Source: Lichenostomus cassidix (taxonomy: Eukaryota; Chordata; Aves; Passeriformes; Meliphagidae). From it: a DNA stretch of 64,000 bases. Position 1 is the stretch's first letter. Every line of letters begins with the position of its first letter. Below are positions 35,468-63,366 of this stretch, piece after piece. Position numbers and translations under genes: made by a program. The stretch is from the NCBI GenBank assembly GCA_008360975.2, contig CM039210.1, positions 20,359,007-20,423,006 on the forward strand, written 5' to 3'. The notes under the pieces are model-generated. The model did no database searches. It was not told the DNA's origin and saw only the letters and a program-made list of their open reading frames with translations.

Positions 35468-37345
35468 ATGGGTGGGAAGTTAACCCATCCTCAATCAGAG
35501 CTTTATACCTCCCTTAAAACTACTCTTAAGTCAGATAATTCCCAGTTCTCTAAGGGGAATTTGAAATGTTTTGTTCGCTGGATTTTTAACATCTTTCCAA
35601 ATGTTTCTGTAACTGCTGTTCAATCTCTTAGCTTCTGGGATAAAATAGGACACGAGCTGACTGTTCTCACACAGGCTGGGGATTGAAAGGTTGCTAATTT
35701 TCTCCCTTTGTTTGTAGTGATTTATAAGTCTGTTAAGAACGCTAAGACTGAAACAGTTCTGCCTAAAAATTCAGATCTCTCTTGTTCTGCCTCCCCCGTG
35801 TCTGTTCCCTCCCCCGCTGTCCCCAAACCCTCGGAACCCCAGGGGGGAGGAGCGCTCTCTCCCCTATCCCCTGCTCCAGCCGGGTCTGGCCAGCCCGGCT
35901 CGAGCCTGTCCCTCACCCTCTTCCCAGCTCCCCAAAACCTCCCTACCTTGACTCCATGTTTCTCACGGGACGGCACAAACCACGCGTTACCCCCCCCTGC
36001 CGCGGGTCCATATGGCGCGGACCACGTGGAGATACAAGCTAGCATGCCTGATCCTTATCAGCTTAAACTTCCCGGGCTGGCATCGGCCCCGCCCCTTGCA
36101 TCATCGGGTATCCCTGCGCCGGGTTCACCCCCCCCCGCGGTGTCGGGTGTCGTCCCTGCGTCGGCCCTGCCCCCCGCGGGGAGCTCCCACCCCGGCGCGG
36201 GTCCCTCCCTCGTTCACCCCCCCCTCCCCTGCGGCGCTACTCCTACTGCCCCGCTCCTCCCCGGTTCCCACGGCAACGGAGCCGGCCAGCGACAGAGGAA
36301 GAGCCAGCCCCGCCGGCACCGGCCTCGGGCTGCCTGTTCTTCTTCGGATGAGGAAAGCAGCGATTCTGAAGAGGATCCCTGGCTTGAAATACGCAAGCAG
36401 GCTGCATACGAGGGGCACTGGGAATTAGCCAACAAAATCTCTGTCACTGCTGCTCCAGTCCATTATAATAGAGCTGGAGGAAACCCCCGCTGGGATGCCC
36501 TCCCATATGCACAGATAAAAGAGATGTGCAAGGCAGGGAAAGATTTTGGGCGTAACTCCCCTTACTTTAAGAACCTACTCCAAGCTACCTTTGCTGCGAA
36601 TGTACTGGTCCCACATGATATAAAAAATCTTATGGCATGCCTTCTGTCACCTGGAGAATACATGCTGTGGGACAGAACTTGGAGAAAACAATTAAAAGAC
36701 CTCCTCCAGGTATATCACAGAGATCCCAACAGGGCTCACATAACACTGGATGATCTTTGCGGGGAAGGAAACCTGGTTAAACCCCAGGATCAGGCGAGAC
36801 AATTGCCTGAACTGATTTTAGAAGATATCAAAAGAGAGGCTGACAGAGCTTTGCTCTCAACCCCCTCGGATTCCACTCCCTCTCTAAATTTCTCCACCAT
36901 AAAACAAACTATCGATGAGTCCTTTATAAAATTCTTCGATAGACTAAAAGAGTCAGTTGAAAAGCAAGTTGGGAATCCAGAAGCCCAAAAGGAGCTGCTG
37001 CATGCATTAGCTATGGCGAATGCTAATGAGAGTTGTAAAAAAGTCCTCCAGGCCCTTCCGCTAGACCCACCTCCTAGCCTCGATCAGATGATTGAGGCTT
37101 GCACCAAATTGGCATCTCCTGAGGCAGCCATAGCCCAGGCAGTTTCAAAAGGGGTAGCAGAAGCACTAGCAGCATCTCAGAAACCTCCACGGAGATGTTA
37201 TAATTGTGGGAGTTTTGAACACATTGCCAAAGACTGCCCTAAACCAAAGCGTGTTAAGAGAAATACTAACAAAAATACTGAAGCTGTGCCCCCAGGCTGT
37301 CCCTGCCAGCATCACCATCAGAAGGACCAGGGAAACGAACATTGA
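35468..37345 (+). CDS. gag: gag of B (one in-frame TGA)
   Basis: The ATG at 35,468 gives MGGKLTHPQ, a myristoylation-type start. The frame is open for 626 codons apart from a TGA at 35,684-35,686 in the matrix region; the frame is the same on both sides. Then come a long proline/serine-rich part (residues about 90-290), a charged segment with SSSDEESSDSEEDP, a capsid region (about 300-530) with PHDIKNLMACLLSPGEYM, and one zinc knuckle CYNCGSFEHIAKDC near residue 580. Only one knuckle is clear, against two in A. The end overlaps pro through a -1 slip site. The TGA would limit product unless read through. Confidence 0.85.
37330..37336 (+). promoter_or_regulatory. Gag-pro -1 frameshift site of B
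   Basis: The heptamer G-GGA-AAC is in exact phase with the gag frame (codons GGA 37,331-37,333 and AAC 37,334-37,336), seven nucleotides before the gag stop. The pro frame is -1. This is the slip heptamer known from Mason-Pfizer-type betaretroviruses. GC-rich sequence follows that could fold. Confidence 0.75.
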
Positions 37346-38109
37346 AGCGCAGCACGGCTCCGCGCCAGGACACAAATTCTACAGCCGTCTCTCCCTGCCC
37401 TGCCACCCCTGCCATGGATGATAACTGCGCACCACACAGCAGAACGGACAAGAGACTCTGTCTTGTAAGTACTGATACACACCACTTCCGCAATGGAAAT
37501 CAACAACACATATATGTGGGCTTTGAAAAACCTTTTGACAGGACTGTGGACATTCTAGTAGTCGGGGACACTAAGCATGGTCCTCCCGAACTTTTTATTT
37601 TACCTGAGGTGCACAAAATAGACCCCAATGGACAAGTACAAATTTCTGTCTCCTGTAACAACACTCCCTGGTTTCTATCAAAGGGTCAGGTGGTAGCACA
37701 AGCTATCATACTACCTGAAAACCACCCCAGGTGCCACAGAACACCTTCCATATGGTGGGCAGAAGTTGTAAGCGCAGACAAGCCCATGATGCATTGTAAA
37801 CTACACAATGATAAATCCACTGCTTACCTGACGGGGATGGTAGACACAGGGGCCGATGTAACCATCATTTCTCGAGCAGAATGGCCCCAGGACTGGAAGA
37901 CCAAACCAGCAGGCGGCAGAATCACAGGCATAGGAGGGTCAGCAACTTCCCAGAGGAGTACAAATAATATCATCATAGAAAGCCCTGAAGGACACACAGC
38001 CACCATCTGCCCGTACATAATTGACTCTGGTTTTACCCTCTGGGGCAGAGATCTCCTTACCCAGTGGGGGACTCAGCTGGTAATCCCACCTCCATCTCAG
38101 GATTTTTAG
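37337..38109 (+). CDS. pro: Protease of B with degenerate dUTPase-like N-terminal part
   Basis: Expressed by -1 frameshifting from gag. About 150 residues precede the protease; they have a dUTPase-like layout (beta-rich, then GQVVAQAIILPE, resembling the GxxIAQL segment) but lack the catalytic and glycine-rich motifs seen in A, so this looks like a relic. The aspartic protease has MVDTGADVTII (active D-T-G-A-D) and a flap-like GRITGIGG. It ends CAG GAT TTT TAG at the second slip site. The frame is uninterrupted. Confidence 0.85.
38100..38106 (+). promoter_or_regulatory. Pro-pol -1 frameshift site of B
   Basis: G-GAT-TTT is in exact phase with pro, directly before the TAG stop, and pol is -1. 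It resembles the G-GAU-UUA site of mouse mammary tumour virus pro-pol. Confidence 0.65.
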
Positions 38110-40811
38110 TTGGGGCCACTGGGGTGCACTCCACCCCGCCCCTAACCTGGAAGACAAGCGACCCCGTGTGGGTGACCCAGTGGCCCCTAAGCACAGAGAA
38201 GCTCAGCGCTCTAGAATCCCTAGTAGAAGAACAGCTCGCCAAAGGTCATATTGTACCATCTAATAGCCCTTGGAACTCCCCTGTCTTTGTCATACGGAAA
38301 CCTGGAAAAGACAAATGGAGGCTCCTCCAAGACCTCAGGAAAATCAATGAAGTCATTGAAGATATGGGACCCCTACAGCCTGGCCTGCCCTCGCCCTCAA
38401 TGCTTCCTAGGAATTGGAAGCTTGCTGTCATTGACATTAAGGACTGTTTCTTCACAATCCCCCTACACCCAAGTGATGCTCCTCGGTTTGCTTTCTCCGT
38501 GCCATCCCTAAACCAGGAAGCCCCCCAGCGCAGACACCACTGGTGTGTGTTACCCCAGGGTATGAAAAATTCTCCAACTATTTGCCAATGGTACGTGGCT
38601 CGCGTCCTGTCCCCCATCCGCAAAGAGTTTGCACGTTCTATCATTCTCCACTACATGGATGATGTGTTAATTTGTGCACCAAATGATAAATACCTGAACT
38701 TAACTCTAGAAAAAACTATTCAAGCCATTGAGAAAGCAGGGTTTGAGATCCAGCAGGAAAAGATTCAGCGTACCTGCCCGTGGACCTACCTGGGACTCCG
38801 CATCAGCGAACGGACCATCGTACCCCAGCAGCTCACCATTAAAGACAACCCAAAGACACTCCGGGACTTGTACCAACTGTGTGGTTCTATAAACTGGATT
38901 CGTCCTCTGCTGGGAATTACTACGCAAGACCTTGCTCCGCTGTTTAACTTCCTGAAAGGCTGTGACCACCTGGACTCGCCCCGAGTCATCACAGAGGAGG
39001 CCCGGGAATCCATCGCTAAGGTACAGCTTGCCCTGTCTTCTCGCCAAGCCCATCGGACAAGTCCTGAGTTGCCTTTTAATTTCATCGTTCTGGGTGAGTC
39101 ACCTAGGCTGTATGGACTGATTTTTCAATGGGACACTGCACAAAAAGACCCACTTCTTATAATAGAGTGGATTTTCTTACCACATCAGCCGCTCAAAACC
39201 ATAACAACACGACAGGAACTAGTAGCTCAACTAATTATGAGAGCCAGAGCACGCCTCCGTACCCTTGCAGGGTGTGATTTCACCTGCATCTATCCGTCAT
39301 TGGAAAGTGAATCCTTAGCAAACATACTCCAAACAAATGAACACCTTCAAGTTGCTCTGGATAGTTATCCAGGCAAGATTTCAAATCATCATCCAAAACA
39401 CAAATTATTCAATTCGGCTTTTCATTTGGCCCCAAAAGAACTCCAAAGTCGAACCCCTCTCAAGGCTCTAACTGTCTTTACAGATGGCTCCGGGAAATCC
39501 CATAAGTCAGTCGTGACTTGGAAACATCCCGAAACGCAAGTGTGGGAGCACGATATCCAAATAATCGAAGGCTCACCGCAGATTGCGGAGCTTGCGGCTG
39601 CTGTTAGAGCTTTTGAGATGTTCGAAGAACCTATTAATCTGGTAACAGATTCAGCTTATGTAGCTGGGGTAGTCGCCAGAGCAGAACATGCCTGGCTAAA
39701 AGAAGTGTCAAATCCTAAATTGTATAAACTGCTCTCAAAACTTGTTTTACTGCTTTCCCACAGAAAGCAGCCGTTCCATGTGATGCATGTGAGGTCACAC
39801 ACCGATCTCCCTGGACCAGTTGCTGATGGGAATCGGAGGGCAGACGCTCTAGCTATGCCGGTGAAAGCTCCTAACATTCCAGACACCTTTGCTCAGGCAA
39901 AGCTGAGCCATCAATTTTACCATCAGAATGTACCAGCACTCATGAGAATGTTTAAATTACCCCGAAACCAGGCAAGGGCAATTGTAGCAACCTGTCCTAG
40001 CTGTCAGAGCTACCAAGTGCCATCATTAGGGTCTGGAGTTAACCCCCGGGGTCTAGGCAGCTGTGAAGTCTGGCAAACAGATGTAACCCATGTCCCCCAG
40101 TTTGGCAGATTGAAATATGTACATGTTTCTGTAGACACATTTTCTGGAGCTGTTTTTGCATCTGCCCATGCAGGAGAAAAGGCAAGAGATGTTATACAGC
40201 ACTTTCTCCTTGCTTTTGCTACCCTGGGCGTTCCTGCTGAGATAAAAACTGACAACGGTCCAGCTTACATCTCTAACAAACTTCAAGAGTTTTTTAGCTC
40301 ATGGGGCATCAAACACATTACAGGTATCCCCCACTCCCCCACAGGACAATCCATAGTTGAGAGGACCCACCAGACAATTAAGAGGGTCCTAGACCAACAG
40401 CGGGGAGGGTCAGAACTCAATTCCCCCATTATGAGACTCTGCAAAGCCCTTTTTACAATAAATTTCTTAAACAATTCGTTTGAAGAGCCTGACCCCCCTG
40501 TGTTCCGGCATTTTACCAATTCGACCCAAGCCAAATTGAAAGAACAACCACCAGTGTTAATCAAAGATCCAGAAAGCCATCAAATATCAGGCCCTTTTTC
40601 ACTAATTGTATGGGGGAGGGGATATGCTTGTGTTTCCACACCTTCAGGACCCAAGTGGATACCAGGAAAATATGTAAAGCCCTACCTCCGACCGTCAGTG
40701 ACAGCTCCTGAGCAGGCGAAAGATGACACACCAGACACTGACAAAGAAACTCCAGACAAAGAAACCAGTGCCGCTTGGAGAAGACGTTGGCGCAAGATAC
40801 CAGTCATGTGA
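38107..40811 (+). CDS. pol: pol of B (RT, RNase H, integrase), intact frame
   Basis: Open from 38,064; the part used after frameshifting begins at about 38,107 and runs roughly 900 codons to TGA at 40,809-40,811. RT has [29 protein letters not shown] and YMDD (about 38,655). RNase H has VFTDGSGKS near 39,480. Integrase has a zinc-binding region (histidine pair near 39,910, CPSC near 39,995), QTDVTHVP (D), EIKTDNGPAY (D) and GQSIVERTHQT (E), so the DDE triad is complete, and the C-terminal domain has GPFSLIVWGRGYACV. A charged tail rich in D, T and K ends the protein. No inactivating change is visible, unlike the integrase of A. Confidence 0.92.
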
Positions 40812-41031
40812 ACAGCTATTTGTGCCGCCTTCAAGCAGTTCCCCAAACCCACAAATCCCTTATCTGTTACCCTCATGTGTTTCCCTAACCCACAACCTTA
40901 TTACCTGTGTCTTATGAAAAAAAAGGGGGGATGAGAGGGGAAAAAGAAAAGAAGTAACAGAAAACCATCTTTTAATGATTTTTGCTTGAAATCCCACAGA
41001 AAAAAGGACTACCTATACCTCTCTTACCACC

Positions 41032-42351
41032 ATGCCTGTAATTGCCTACCTCTGCATTCTCCTGACCTCCTGCATCCTGTTACCACCAGAGGTTGCCGCA
41101 TGGATTGTCCCTCAGCCAAAGACCAATATATGGGTTACATTGGCAAAAGCACTCCAGCAAGACCATATGTGCCTGTCTATGGGCAGCGTCAGTGACCCAC
41201 TTTCATCATGCCTGGTGGGGATCCCTCTCCACAAAGATGAACTGCCTTTTGCAAACGAGGTGCTCCCCCAGAAAGAAGCTTGGGAGAAATGGGTAAACAC
41301 GCTGGCAGCAGCACCAGAGGAACCCCACGAATTACTATTATTGGGGTCCTCCCAGGCTACCCTTTGCCTCAAGTTTGTCTTCAGCCCGAAAAGAGGGATG
41401 GCATTATCCTGGTCAGAACACCAGAAATTAAGTCATAGTAGAAAAGCAACACCCCAGGGAAAGGTTTACTCTGTCAGTAATTGGTGTCAGGATAAAAAGG
41501 TCATCCCAACAGAGTCATCTGTACACCCCAAAATGCTGCCCAAAGGTATGTTCCTGATTTGTGGGAATCAGGCGTGGTCTGGAATCCCATCCCAGCTCCA
41601 AGGGGGACCGTGCACTCTTGGCAGGCTTTCTGTACTAGCACCCAACAAAACCCAAATTCTGCATTGGAAAAACCATACTCGATTGGCCCGCCAAAAAAGA
41701 CATATACAACAATTAGATCCTAATTGTGATAGCGAAATTATCAATTGGTCATTGTCTAAAAGGATTGCTGCATCGTTTTTCCTGCCTGGAGTAGCAGCAG
41801 CAAAAGCCTTAGGAGAACTTAGCCACCTTGAGTGCTGGCTCGGAAAGCATGCTAACCTAACCTCGAGTGCCCTCTCTCAGCTTCTTGAAGATGAAGAAAC
41901 CACCAGGCATGCAACACTGCAAAACAGAGCAGCCATCGATTTTCTTTTATTGGCCCATGGACATGGCTGTGAGGAATTCGAGGGACTGTGTTGCTTTAAC
42001 CTGTCATCTCATAGCCAGAGCATCCACGCGACGATACAGAAAATAAAGGATCAAATCAAAGAACTGAAGACAGAAAAAGAAGCAGACTGGATTAGCGATC
42101 TTTTCGGACAGTGGGGACTTCAGGGGTGGCTAGCATCCTTAGTCAAAACTGGACTGTGGGTGATCCTAATAATTTTCCTTGTTCTAAGCTTGTTCGGTTG
42201 CCTCAAGAAGTGTTTAACTAAGCAAGTAGGGGAGGCCTTTCCTTTAAATAAGGAAGGGGGAGTTGTTGGGGTAGAAGATACCATCTCAGGAACTGCTGAG
42301 GAGCTGAGGAGTTCCAATACAGCAGAACTCCACTGGTGGAAGCCATCTTAG
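41032..42351 (+). CDS. env: env of B, intact frame
   Basis: The ATG at 41,032 is in a good context (ACCACCATG), 220 nt after pol. The signal peptide is about residues 1-22. The surface unit is short and ends at RQKR (residues 220-223, furin-type). The TM subunit has a fusion-peptide-like stretch (IAASFFLPGVAAAKAL, about 245-260), LQNRAAIDFLLLAHGHG (immunosuppressive-type segment, about 296-312), C-X6-CC at 313/320/321, and an anchor near 370-395. The last 29 codons lie inside the 3' LTR. This is the covalent, gamma-like (D-type) envelope that some betaretroviruses carry. The surface unit of about 200 residues is small for the class. Confidence 0.9.
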   Translation: MPVIAYLCILLTSCILLPPEVAAWIVPQPKTNIWVTLAKALQQDHMCLSMGSVSDPLSSCLVGIPLHKDELPFANEVLPQKEAWEKWVNTLAAAPEEPHELLLLGSSQATLCLKFVFSPKRGMALSWSEHQKLSHSRKATPQGKVYSVSNWCQDKKVIPTESSVHPKMLPKGMFLICGNQAWSGIPSQLQGGPCTLGRLSVLAPNKTQILHWKNHTRLARQKRHIQQLDPNCDSEIINWSLSKRIAASFFLPGVAAAKALGELSHLECWLGKHANLTSSALSQLLEDEETTRHATLQNRAAIDFLLLAHGHGCEEFEGLCCFNLSSHSQSIHATIQKIKDQIKELKTEKEADWISDLFGQWGLQGWLASLVKTGLWVILIIFLVLSLFGCLKKCLTKQVGEAFPLNKEGGVVGVEDTISGTAEELRSSNTAELHWWKPS

Positions 42352-53300: not shown

Positions 53301-53465
53301 TTAAAGGCAAAACCTGGATTGCTTTAGTGAAAATGTTTGAAGCTAACTATGTCTACAACTGCCTTAGAATTTTCTCTGAGACATCTGATCGATTAAATAC
53401 GTTTAATTACATTATTATCAAACAGCAGAAATTTAAAGCTTTTCGCTTAAGAATTAAAATCAAAT

Positions 53466-53908
53466 TGTCACCGAATCTGCGGGAAAATAAGAAAAACCCT
53501 CTAACACTGTATTTGAAGTGATAGAGAATCAGGCATTACTTTATTTGCTGGCCAGGATGTGCCTAGGAAAGCATTCCAAGACCACATGGCCTCAGAGAAT
53601 TTTCTCCCGAATTTTATACAGTCAAAACCCTTGCTGCAGATGGTATCTGGCGAATGTCTGTGATAACCCCATGACCTGTGGATGTCCAGTTGGTGCCACA
53701 ATGTCTCGAGGATGTTCTGTTAATGGTCTTTATCTTTCTGGTTATCTTCGGGGTTTACTCCCAATCCGTGGTATGTTAATCCCATCTCCTTAGGGTGATA
53801 CTATATCTCTAAAAAAAACTAAAGAAAAGCTCCTTTCCCTAAGTAAAGTCAATTAAAGATAGCTAGAGAGATACAATAAAATTTCTTAAGTAATATTTTT
53901 TTCTGACA
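53466..53908 (-). mobile_element. 3' LTR of K
   Basis: Minus-strand TGTCAGAAAAAAA...TCGGTGACA with AATAAA (plus CTTTATTTGC). It adjoins a polypurine tract (plus ATTCCCCCCTTT, 53,909-53,920). Confidence 0.9.
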
Positions 53909-59358: not shown

Positions 59359-60994
59359 TCATGCTTCATTTAACTCTAAAAGTCTTACAGTTTCGTTAGG
59401 GGTGTGTCCATTTTTAAATGGGCAGTCGCGCTGCCAGTGACCAACTTGTTTACAATTTGCACACTGATCTTTACCCAGGCCATGAAAGCTGTCCCTCCCT
59501 GTCGTTTCACGGGAGCTGCTTCTCCTTGGGAGTCCCTGGAAACCACCCCTCCTTGGGATTCCCCGGTAACCGCCCCTCTCTGGGGTTTCAGGATGACTGC
59601 CTCCCCCTGAGGCGTCATGAGGATTGTCTCTTTGGCCTCTTATAGCTGCTATGAGTTTAGCATCTCTAATGTCTTCTCTGTTGCTGTAAACTTTACAGGC
59701 TATATCCAGTAATTTGTTTATATTTCTAGAATCTTCCCCTTCTAATTTTTGAAGTTTTACTCTAATGTCTGGAGCAGATTGCCCCACAAATATTGTTGTT
59801 AACAGCAATGCATCCCCTTCTCTTTCAGGGTCCAGATTAGTATATTTCCTGGCCACATCTAAAAGTCGCTGATAAAAGTCAGAAGGGGGTTCATCTTTTC
59901 CTTGGACTATTTGATACAGCTTTGATATATTTATAGCTTTTGGAATACCATGTCTTATGCCAAACGTAATCAACCTCTGATACCGAGTCAATAGTTCCCT
60001 GTGCCCTGGGTTATTGGGGTCCCACCGCGGATCTGTCTGTGGGAAATGCTGATCTAAGGTTCCTGGCTGAGCATTCTGAGCATGGAGTCTCTCTGCTTCT
60101 TCTCTTGCTTTTGCCAACACCATAACTTTCTCCCCCTGGGTTAGCAGAGAATCCAATACCACTTGAATGTCTAACCAGTCTGGGTCCTGTGTTCTAATAA
60201 TAGTCTCGAAAATCTTAGCTACTTTCTCAGGATCTTCCCTGTATGATCCTGCAAGCTCTTTCCAGGATCTTAAATCTGCTACTGAAAACAGCACCTTAAC
60301 AGTAACTGGTCCTTCTGCCCCAGCAGCCTGCCGAAGTGGCGCTTGAATTACCCCCCTTTCCCCATTCCTGTCTCTTATTCCATTTCGGGTTCTACTTGCC
60401 ACCGGACTCAACATCCCTTCACCTTCAGCATGCCCACTCGCTCCCTCTTCATCCCGTGCTGCGGGAGGCTCCCCAGCGGCTGCCCCCCCTTTCCCTTCTT
60501 CGAGGGGAAACTAAAAATTCAATCTCTTCTTCTACAGAATCATGCTTCTGACACTTCTTTCCACCACAACATTCTACACAACTATATTCCAGAGATTCAC
60601 TTTTATTAACCTTCTTTAAAGCCAGTATCACAGACTGCTTTGTTTCCCTAGGTAGCAAACCACATTTCTTCCGTAAATCTAAGTCATTTTTCAACTCACA
60701 AAACAAATCTATGTAAGGTATTTCATTCCACTTTTCCTTTTTCCGGCAATATAGCATTAGCTGCAGGATTGTTTCAGAATCTAAACACCCGTTACAAGGC
60801 CATTCTTCCTTATCTAATACATAACTCGGCCACCAGCGGTTACAGTATTCTATTAACTGTTTACGGGTTAAAGAGGGGCCTTTAAACTTTTTCCAATTTT
60901 GTAAAATACAACCCAGGGGTGAACTCCTGGGTATACCTCCTTCCCGAGTAGGTGAAGATACCTTTGAACCCATATTGAATTGTGTAGCTACCAA
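59359..60994 (-). pseudogene. gag: gag of K, one frameshift
   Basis: Matrix (SPLGCILQNWKKF, YCNRWWPSYVL) from about 60,970, a cysteine-rich part (CVECCGGKKC), then a frame change at about 60,450-60,490, next to a run of seven C. The second block (60,414-59,359) has capsid with a major homology region (QGKDEPPSDFYQRL) and one zinc knuckle (CANCKQVGHWQRDC). The gag frame ends in TGA at 59,359-59,361, in the same frame as protease-pol. Confidence 0.88.
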
Positions 60995-61296
60995 CTATGC
61001 CAGTTACACACACATAGATGTCGCAGAGGTATACTTAAGCTCACACAACGATTCCACAATCACTCAGAATGTTTCAACACTCAGCAAGTTATTTATATTT
61101 CGCGGGCGTCCCCGCGTGGGTTTTTATACCGGTAAAACACAAGTTAACAGGTAATTTGCACACACACAGTACACTCACATGCATTCAAAAATTCAAAAGC
61201 ACCGGAGCAAACTCTGTTAAAAAAAAAACTTTTCACAGTAACCTAGGCAGGAGACTTGAACTCCAAAACACTCTGCAATTGCGTTTTAACTAGGTA

Positions 61297-61588
61297 TCGG
61301 GACTCAAACCCGAAACCGCGCGGCGGCTGGACACCGAGACTCTAACTCAGAACCGACACGATCCGAGACTCTATCTCGGAACTAAAGCAGCTGAGACTCA
61401 AACTCACACACCGGGCTCTGAGACTCAAACTCGGAACTGAGACAACCCAGACTCGAACTGGGAACAAACGCGACCGAGACTCGAACTCAGAAACACAGGA
61501 AGATGACACCGAGACTCAAATTCGTAACCAAGGCAACCGAGACTTTAACTCGGAAACACAGGGATTCGGCGCCTAGACTCAAACTAAG
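61297..61588 (-). repeat. Tandem array of ten T-arm-like hairpins in the K leader
   Basis: Ten 17-nt units at 61,297; 61,334; 61,363; 61,391; 61,418; 61,446; 61,474; 61,509; 61,537 and 61,572, spaced 27-29 nt or 35-37 nt. On the provirus sense strand each is a 5-bp stem around a 7-nt loop (for example CCCAG-TTCGAGT-CTGGG). Stems vary by paired changes (CCGAG/CTCGG, CCCAG/CTGGG, TCGGG/CCCGA, CTTAG/CTAGG). The layout equals a tRNA T-arm. See the findings. Confidence 0.85.
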
Positions 61589-61820
61589 AAACCGAGAAAA
61601 CATGCATGTATCACTAGTGATTTTCCAGTATCTAATTAAACCATCACCCTTGTATTTTACCCCAAAGTAATGCCTTAACAAAAAAAAAAAAAAAAAAAAC
61701 CACGGGATCTTGTGTTGAACTCACCGGATTCCAGGGACTGAGAGGTCTCCTGGATGAAATCTCCGTGCGCGCTGGGGAGACACTCACGTTCCCGGAGTCC
61801 GTGGAGTGATCAACAGCCCC

Positions 61821-61838
61821 GTCCCTTCGTGGTCGCCA
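61821..61838 (-). other. Primer-binding site of K (tRNA-Arg)
   Basis: Minus-strand TGGCGACCACGAAGGGAC. This is, from memory of vertebrate tRNAs, the exact complement of the tRNA-Arg(TCG/CCG) 3' end including CCA. It lies 5 nt from the LTR. Confidence 0.8.
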
Positions 61839-61843
61839 AAAAT

Positions 61844-62285
61844 TGTCACCGAATCTGCGGGAAAATAAGAAATACCCTCTAACACTGTATTTGAAGTGAT
61901 AGAGAATCAGGCATTACTTTATTTGCTGGCCAGGATGTGCCTAGGAAAACATTCCAAGAACACATAGCCTCAGAGAATTTTCTCCCGAATTTTATACAGT
62001 CAAAACCCTTGCTGCAGATGGTATCTGGCGAATGTCTGTGATAACCCCATGACCTGTGGATGTCCAGTTGGTGCCACAATGTCTCGAGGATGTTCTGTTA
62101 ATGGTCTTTATCTTTCTGGTTATCTTCGGGGTTTACTCCCAATCCGTGGTATGTTAATCCCATCTCCGTAGGGTGATACTATATCTCTAAAAAAACTAAA
62201 GAAAAGCTCCTTTCTCTAAGTAAAGTCAATTAAAGATAGCTAGAGAGATACAATAAAATTTCTAAAGTTATATTTTTTTCTGACA
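61844..62285 (-). mobile_element. 5' LTR of K
   Basis: 442 bp with the same ends as the 3' LTR. An A run of about 20 (61,680-61,700) lies downstream in the leader. Confidence 0.9.
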
Positions 62286-62879
62286 GGGGTGAGAGCAGAA
62301 AACTGTCTGGGAAGAGAGAGAGAGAAACAAGTAGAGATAAAGAGTATTTGTAGTAGAAAAATTGTGGTGATGAATAAATTTGAGAATCTGCTCTGTGGAC
62401 TGAAAAGAGGCCCCACACCCTGCCCCCACCTGGCTTGTGGATTGTAAAGGAGTAAAGGGGGTGAATACTATAGGTTCGTAAGAAGGAGGGGGGAGTGAAC
62501 AAAATAATGTATGAAAAGTTTATTTTTGCCTTGCATTTATCCTCCAATTCTGTTAAGTAATTAAATCACCTTTTGCAACTTTAAGCTTGAAGCCTGGTTG
62601 CCCTCTTTTCGTGTGTCCTTCTGGCAAGGTCCTGTCTCAAACCCATGACAGGGAGGTAATTAGAATAAGGGGGCAATTACTTCATTTGTTAGGTTTCTTA
62701 TTGGAGAATTTTAGATAGGTATGCTAATCGATGAAGTCCATAAATTGTATACGCATGATACCGTGGCTCTCTCTTTTCGTCATAGTGCACCTGAGATCCT
62801 ATTAAACCAAGGTAATACCCTTTTTCCTATACTGCAATATCTGCATCTCAATTTTTACCAGCATTTTAGGCATCAATAT
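62286..62879. other. Spacer between K and J, possible LTR debris
   Basis: No gene. GAAGCCTGGTTGCCCTC...CTCAAACCCATGACAG (62,590-62,651) resembles an LTR end, but no partner is visible. Confidence 0.35.
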
Positions 62880-63366
62880 TGTTGCCCGAACCGAGGAAAC
62901 ACAAAACAACCGAAGTTATTTTATGCGGTGCTTTATTGAGGGCCCTGGGGACCTGAGGACTAATGTCCAAAGTCAGAGCCCCAAACCTGCTACAAATCAC
63001 TGAGTATATATATGTTTTCTTTCCAAATTGCTTCATCTTAACGAATTTGATTTCTAGACACATCAACCTGATTTATGATTACATTGTGACTTTGTTTTTC
63101 GTTAACTGAACATTCTTTATCATCATTAATCTACTACACCCTATTAGATAAGTCACACACTCCACTTAGCAGATTACTTAAATAAACAAACTGTTCTATA
63201 GCTACATTCCTTAGACAAGTCTTTCTCCCCTCATCAGTATGCTCTATTGATCCTTTTGATCGCTACTGGCAACTTCGCTACACAACAGTGTTTACACTCA
63301 GGCCTACTGATCCCTCCAAGCCTTAGCATGACTACTACTAAAGTTTTTATTCATAGTTTTGCAACA
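62880..63366 (-). mobile_element. 3' LTR of provirus J
   Basis: 487 bp, minus-strand TGTTGCAAAAC...GGGCAACA, with AATAAA (plus CTTTATTGAGG). A polypurine tract (plus AGTCCCCCCTTTTG) starts at 63,367. The other end of J is outside the window. Confidence 0.85.

Follow-up and report, generated by a model that had tools for sequence, protein, structure and literature searches.

The window, by which we mean the whole 64-kb stretch of DNA analysed, carries on its minus strand an endogenous retrovirus (ERV) bounded by a 5' LTR at 61840..62285 (limits approximate; repeat match 99% over 300 nt) and a paired 3' LTR at about 53462-53908, the two being 98.0% identical over 447 nt. The open frames of the element encode Gag p30, a zinc knuckle, protease, RT, RNase H, an integrase with an MLV C-terminal domain and TLV_coat, and its coding region is divided among several ORFs. 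The Gag p30, MLV-type integrase C-terminus and TLV_coat domains identify the element as gammaretrovirus-like. Its primer-binding site (PBS), TGGCGACCACGAAGGGAC, which we take to be of tRNA-Arg type, was read directly at 61821..61838, running from 61838 to 61821 on the minus strand and confirming the placement given in a first-pass annotation of this DNA. A predicted major splice donor, TCCG GTGAGTT (61718..61728), and a predicted gag start codon, ATG GGT TCA (60971..60973), with the gag p30 domain downstream of it, were also read directly on the minus strand. In the leader, between the PBS and gag and 3' of the donor-like GTGAGT (~61724), lies a hairpin-like array of eleven tandem units. Since the array is downstream of the predicted donor, full-length RNA would carry it and the predicted spliced RNA would not. 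Rfam gave nothing for positions 60000-63000 at E-values up to 1, and no tRNA gene was predicted in the window by ARAGORN. Another, largely open ERV, with Gag_p24, RT thumb and an Avian_gp85-type envelope match, occupies 35687-42351 on the plus strand.

The eleven units span 61249-61588 on the minus strand, each 17 nt long, with a 7-nt loop between two stem strands of 5 nt. All were read directly and aligned: unit 1, CTTAG-TTTGAGT-CTAGG (61572..61588); unit 2, CCGAG-TTAAAGT-CTCGG (61537..61553); unit 3, ACGAA-TTTGAGT-CTCGG, imperfect with 3/5 pairs (61509..61525); unit 4, CTGAG-TTCGAGT-CTCGG (61474..61490); unit 5, CCCAG-TTCGAGT-CTGGG (61446..61462); unit 6, CCGAG-TTTGAGT-CTCAG, with 4/5 pairs (61418..61434); unit 7, GTGAG-TTTGAGT-CTCAG, also 4/5 (61391..61407); unit 8, CCGAG-ATAGAGT-CTCGG, whose loop in the window copy deviates at position 54 (61363..61379); unit 9, CTGAG-TTAGAGT-CTCGG (61334..61350); unit 10, TCGGG-TTTGAGT-CCCGA (61297..61313); and unit 11, TGGAG-TTCAAGT-CTCCT, a 4-bp stem 48 nt beyond unit 10 that was also found as a match to GAGTTYGAGTCTC (61249..61265). 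The first ten had been listed by the first-pass annotation and all ten are present; the eleventh is new. That annotation had given every unit a 5-bp stem and a 7-nt loop spaced at 28 or about 35 nt, which is true in part: seven of the eleven units form all five pairs, units 3, 6, 7 and 11 are imperfect, and spacings of 37 and 48 nt occur beside those of 27-29 and 35 nt. Overall, 50 of 55 stem pairs are formed, with G-C as the closing pair in most units. When the 3' stem strands were re-dealt among the 11 units, the mean was 43.5 paired cells, and 50 or more were reached in 91 of 200000 permutations. The 13-mer GAGTTYGAGTCTC, allowing up to two mismatches, has 11 matches in the window, every one inside the array, against 2.07 expected and a maximum of 6 in 100 dinucleotide shuffles of the window.

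The leader was used to search the bird's own genome (1.10 Gb in 514 contigs; the window lies on contig C32). Thirty-one matches, the window included, were found at 72-100% identity, and 29 loci, here called the K family, cover all of them. Twenty-four of the 31 lie on C32 (24.1 Mb), as do most of the 150 listed gag matches, a crowding that would be expected of a W-like ERV refuge. Units are present in all 29 loci, from two in a fragment (L037) to 18 in two blocks (L034), and GGTGAGT precedes the array in 20 of the 29 leaders. A second sub-array with a GGAG/CTCC stem and mostly ~48-nt spacing follows the main array, with one copy in the window (unit 11), three in L027 and four in L031. A search of this genome for two units side by side gave 124 matches versus 4 for the reversed control, and the places among the matches listed all belong to the K family. 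The array would expand and contract by tandem duplication, each unit staying foldable. The first-pass annotation had held that K relatives without the array would speak against its reading: the array is found in all 29 leader loci, and it is nearly lost from L081, a relative with 71% matrix identity, an open frame of 478 aa (the match includes one stop) and about one and a half units left. No unit was found within 1500 nt ahead of the gag match in L076 and L086; the leader-matching array of L076 lies about 4.6 kb further upstream. Looser patterns were set aside: a generic three-unit pattern occurs in at least 120 stretches of viral contigs, which we judged uninformative, and the counts in the bird's own genome for this pattern (171) and for pairs of GGTTNRAGTCC (15) are no evidence because the reversed controls give more (522 and 77). 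Further T-loop-like clusters, by pattern match alone, lie at C32:12105217-12105333, C13:13654312-13654371, C5:112465430-112465863 and C15:18598565-18598686.

Conservation was measured in an alignment of 25 of the 29 loci, L028, L034, L036 and L037 being omitted because they are fragments or doubled; the counts retain a few rows that are plainly misaligned (e.g. the loop AAAGGTT in two loci). The loop consensus of the 25 copies is UUNRAGU, which we take to be the general T-loop pattern: there is almost no variation at positions 54, 55 and 58-60, a purine is kept at 57, and variation peaks at 56, the mean pairwise differences at 54 to 60 being 0.039, 0.014, 0.321, 0.175, 0.043, 0.044 and 0.051. 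The nearly fixed columns average 0.038 versus 0.133 for the linkers (one-sided Mann-Whitney p = 1.9e-6, for columns that share one history), while position 56 is more variable than the linkers (0.321 versus 0.133, p = 0.0016). Among the 246 ungapped loops, a purine stands at position 57 without exception, and all four letters occur at position 56 (97 C, 84 T, 55 A and 10 G). Part of the C-to-T change at position 56 may be CpG decay; the A and G found there are not so explained. A T-loop fold is built on a reverse-Hoogsteen pair between U54 and A58, a U-turn and a purine at 57, and C56 of a true T-arm contacts the D-loop, pairing with G19 in tRNA. Judged by sequence, the array conserves the U54, U55, R57 and A58 of a tRNA-type T-loop and not its C56. 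The earlier description of the loops as TTCRANY stands as far as the general T-loop pattern goes and fails at C56, the least conserved position, and in unit 8, where ATAGAGT deviates at 54.

The stem letters are not conserved as such, since the mean difference of the stem columns (0.137 over 25 loci) equals that of the linkers (0.133). Pairing was compared with a tree-aware null in which the changes of each column were scattered over a tree built without the stem columns (2000 simulations). Paired stem cells number 1102 of 1237 versus 1027 +/- 28 under the null, a value reached by 4 of 2000 simulations, so that the covariation proposed in the first-pass annotation is supported above a phylogenetic expectation. 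Stem pairs changed on both sides number 10 where 5.6 are expected (matched by 47 of 2000), and cells bearing such a two-sided change number 19 where 9.6 are expected (matched by 55 of 2000). Unit 4, for example, occurs as CTGAG/CTCGG, TTGAG/CTCAG and CCAAG/CTTGG, and unit 10 as TCGGG/CCCGA and TCGAG/CTTGA. We consider the covariation support for stem pairing, as read from these alignments, to be moderate because there are three near-duplicate locus pairs among the 25 (L011/L012, L023/L024 and L032/L033) and few changes (141). A strand test that compared changes to G-U with changes to A-C gave a weak result, 15 versus 10 on internal branches and 21 versus 27 on terminal branches.

A second ERV family with such an array was found in the same genome. 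A protein search with a piece of the gag matrix gave 150 scored matches among 685 candidates, and the upstream DNA was read for L068-L097 (30 loci, six of which besides L093 lie outside the K clade) and for 20 more (L098-L117); in a strict hairpin count of L068-L097 the minus-strand loci were counted unturned, and those outside the K clade were recounted turned. L093, on contig C20, is gammaretrovirus-like and about 43-45% identical in matrix. Between 49 and 200 nt beyond its own GTGAGT stand six T-arm-like units, of which four have 5/5 pairs and two have 4/5. Its stems include AGGGG/CCCCT, GGGGC/GCCCC and GGGGG/CCCCC, the family as a whole also having CAGGG/CCCTG, and three of its six loops depart from TTNRAGT (TACGAAT, TTCAAGC and TTCCAGT). 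Partial relatives of the L093 leader, the 241-nt pieces L118-L120, hold further units. Because the first look had asked for pairing, the second family was recounted by loop alone: L093 and L118-L120 contain 14 TTNRAGT sites, related copies included, of which 13 have at least 4/5 pairs, as compared with 9 of 94 in the rest of the window. With both families aligned (30 units, 27 distinct, the second-family rows partly chosen by pairing), 91.9% of cells are paired versus 66.4% after shuffling, the covariation score is 0.745 versus 0.247 with every slid register lower, and two-sided changes occur at all five pairs. The presence in a distantly related retrovirus of the same genome of an array with different stems makes it likely that the window copies are selected RNA structures. 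The T-arm-like geometry and the selection on pairing claimed by the first-pass annotation are supported by the UUNRAGU loop of 25 copies, by tree-aware covariation and by this second family.

In the matrix tree L093 joins L092 (support of only 0.48), separate from the K family; close to gag, L092 contains one AAGGG-TTAGAGT-CCCTT, of which L110 has a near copy. Twenty related leaders (L098-L117) contain no array, with one strict T-loop hairpin versus 4.7 expected from shuffles; counted by loop alone they have 28 sites, of which 16 have four pairs and none has five. L090, L091, L094, L095 and L096, outside the K clade, likewise contain no array, with 0, 4, 0, 1 and 0 loop sites respectively and none with five pairs. 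Twelve of the 16 four-pair sites of L098-L117 are one weak hairpin, TTGGT-TTGGAGT-ATCTG with close variants, shared by 12 gammaretrovirus-like leaders (L099-L104, L107, L108, L112, L113, L115 and L116), where it lies about 320-345 nt before the gag match.

Folding of the leader as RNA gave a mixed answer. Positions 61240-61600 are predicted to fold with z = -4.16, unusually stable, but not as eleven separate hairpins: the minimum free energy (MFE) folds pair unit with unit, and relative to the MFE, the all-hairpin fold loses 21.6 kcal/mol of stability for the window and 24.4 for L093. Across 26 leaders, 81 of 234 units exceed a hairpin probability of 0.5. Energy models score neither T-loop contacts nor co-transcriptional folding. 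Even so, the predicted folds count as real evidence against eleven hairpins in a simple row, unit-to-unit helices being preferred in the leader fold that the first-pass annotation had suggested as a check.

The position of the array 3' of the predicted donor, where most packaging determinants of HIV-1 and MLV lie, has led us to choose, as a reading that falls slightly short of an even chance, one in which the array acts as a multivalent, genomic-RNA-specific packaging or dimerisation element whose units are likely selected as RNA hairpins. Each loop would fold as a T-loop, to judge from its letters, and present a repeated compact knob on a short helix; the repetition of units would give avidity for multimerising Gag or nucleocapsid; and the loops or self-complementary units could also join two genomes. 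For HIV-1 and MLV, most packaging determinants are described as lying 3' of the major donor, and nucleocapsid as interacting with helix-loops whose loops are purine-rich (PMC5086612). Against a packaging role stand the unit-to-unit folds, the varying copy number, the stem columns that vary like linkers, the weak strand test, the near-loss of the array in L081, the lack of units in the 1500 nt read for L076 and L086, and the twenty related leaders that do without it.

The first-pass annotation had suggested mimicry, by the array, of the T-arm of the element's own primer. More broadly, the units could be T-arm mimics of primer or tRNA that recruit a host tRNA-binding factor (synthetase, elongation factor, export receptor or modifying enzyme) and so aid primer capture or RNA export, which we consider unlikely. 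The loop does resemble a tRNA T-loop, and in the HIV-1 leader a tRNA-like element is bound by LysRS (PMC11181671). The window PBS occurs exactly in 2 of 29 loci, the window included, and TGGCGACTCCGCCGGGAC in 5 of 29; in 8 of 29 no PBS was found at up to 4 mismatches, and the others differ. No host tRNA gene end in the bird's own genome matches the window PBS at up to 1 mismatch, so that priming by tRNA-Arg, as first annotated, is putative for this copy; a tRNA-Arg gene used as a query has four relatives in the host, which match at positions 7-62 or 7-63 only. One host gene end matches TGGCGACTCCGCCGGGAC, the PBS of five sister copies, exactly and has the loop TTCGAGT, and one more matches with a mismatch. 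Unit 10 (TCGGG/CCCGA, its loop reading TTCGAGT in 8 of the 25 copies) falls one base short of TTCGAGTCCCGG in the gene end that matches exactly, and the L092 unit has the CCCTT strand implied by the window PBS. However, the commonest stems, of the CCGAG/CTCGG type, are unlike the CCCTT or CCCGG 3' T-stem strands implied by two of the PBSs, and the PBS differs among K copies while the array persists. These data leave the claim of primer mimicry weakly placed, the loop being shared and unit 10 nearly so, while most stems are not and the PBS changes under a constant array. L010, L014, L016, L019 and L026 differ in PBS from L009 and L020, with the rest of the leader kept. This suggests that copies of the ERV family switched primers among putative tRNA-Arg types.

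The modifying enzymes of the T-arm place a further constraint on tRNA mimicry. The pseudouridine synthase reading requires GUUCNANNC for TRUB1, yet C56 is the least conserved position of the array loop. The same holds for TRMT6/61A, whose mRNA substrate is described as GUUCRA in a T-loop-like hairpin (PMC9141559); the C of GUUCRA is missing in 149 of 246 loops. Single units still fit, but position 56 is free and we therefore set aside m1A formation by TRMT6/61A and the pseudouridine enzymes as the main explanation.

We judge it more doubtful that the units work as a dimerisation zipper, being quasi-self-complementary and pairing unit to unit, in cis or between genomes, with the hairpins as one of two forms. 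This duplex or dimer reading is kept alive because folding programmes prefer unit-to-unit helices; in addition, UCGA loops are self-complementary, and two T-loops can interdigitate in the IDTM arrangement (PMC8704770). Units with private stems (CCCAG/CTGGG, TCGGG/CCCGA and CTTAG/CTAGG) would, however, pair best with themselves, and the A or G present at position 56 in 65 of 246 loops costs loop-loop complementarity.

Two further explanations are improbable. The array could act as DNA, as a row of B boxes bound by TFIIIC for RNA polymerase III, or of other protein sites serving as promoter or insulator in the manner of the Su(Hw) array of gypsy; GGTTCRANTCC is both B box and T-arm, and some second-family units fit it exactly, but C56, essential in the B box, is kept in only 97 of 246 loops, with T (84), A (55) or G (10) in the others, and two-sided stem changes that preserve pairing are unexpected for sequence-specific DNA binding. 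The freedom of position 56 thus sets the B-box reading aside as the main explanation. That one hairpin was tandemly duplicated without selection, its T-arm likeness due to chance and its pairing inherited from an ancestral unit, would agree with 2 to 18 units per locus, stems that vary like linkers and an L081 almost without array, and has little to recommend it against the two-sided changes specific to single units, the contrast within the loop between nearly fixed positions and a free one, and the recurrence of this kind of loop on unrelated stems in a second family.

Stem-loops in retroviral leaders are already known; the loop type and the tandem arrangement found here are unusual, and the open-licence literature searched for such leader arrays or their setting contained no report of them. 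Two distantly related gammaretrovirus lineages of an avian host carry T-arm look-alike arrays with unrelated stems and one kind of loop. They may represent a new class of retroviral cis-element whose repeated T-loops would act as multivalent docking knobs, the partner being Gag, a host protein that binds the tRNA elbow or a second genome, a suggestion we regard as possible rather than probable. The selection of full-length RNA by retroviruses is known mainly from a few viruses, and a natural repeat of a single type of hairpin, in which the loop is kept while the stems drift, offers a clean multi-copy object with which to ask what recognises a leader loop. If true, retroviral tRNA mimicry would extend from the anticodon arm, as in HIV-1, to the T-arm.

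The closest structural parallel is the T-arm or T-loop of tRNA, RNase P and T-box riboswitches, which shares with the array a 7-nt loop on a 5-bp stem, U54, U55, R57 and A58, and the G-C closing pair present in most units. Unlike those systems the array has a free position 56, and it stands in tandem in a viral leader, with no D-arm partner noticed and with a likeness to a T-loop judged by its letters. The MLV packaging signal is similar in its place between a donor-like site and gag, in its repeated stem-loops and in belonging with MLV-type gag, pol and env domains; it has GACG loops, whereas the array has UUNRAGU loops and up to 18 units in varying copy number. The leader of gypsy, also a retroelement, offers a further likeness, its Su(Hw) array having roughly twelve closely spaced units. 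Those units are protein sites on DNA, whereas the stems described here change on both sides and keep pairing. Finally, in the HIV-1 element bound by LysRS (PMC11181671), a part of tRNA is likewise apparently imitated in a retroviral leader; that element mimics the anticodon arm within the PBS segment, while the array reported here is a repeated likeness of the T-arm 3' of a donor-like site.
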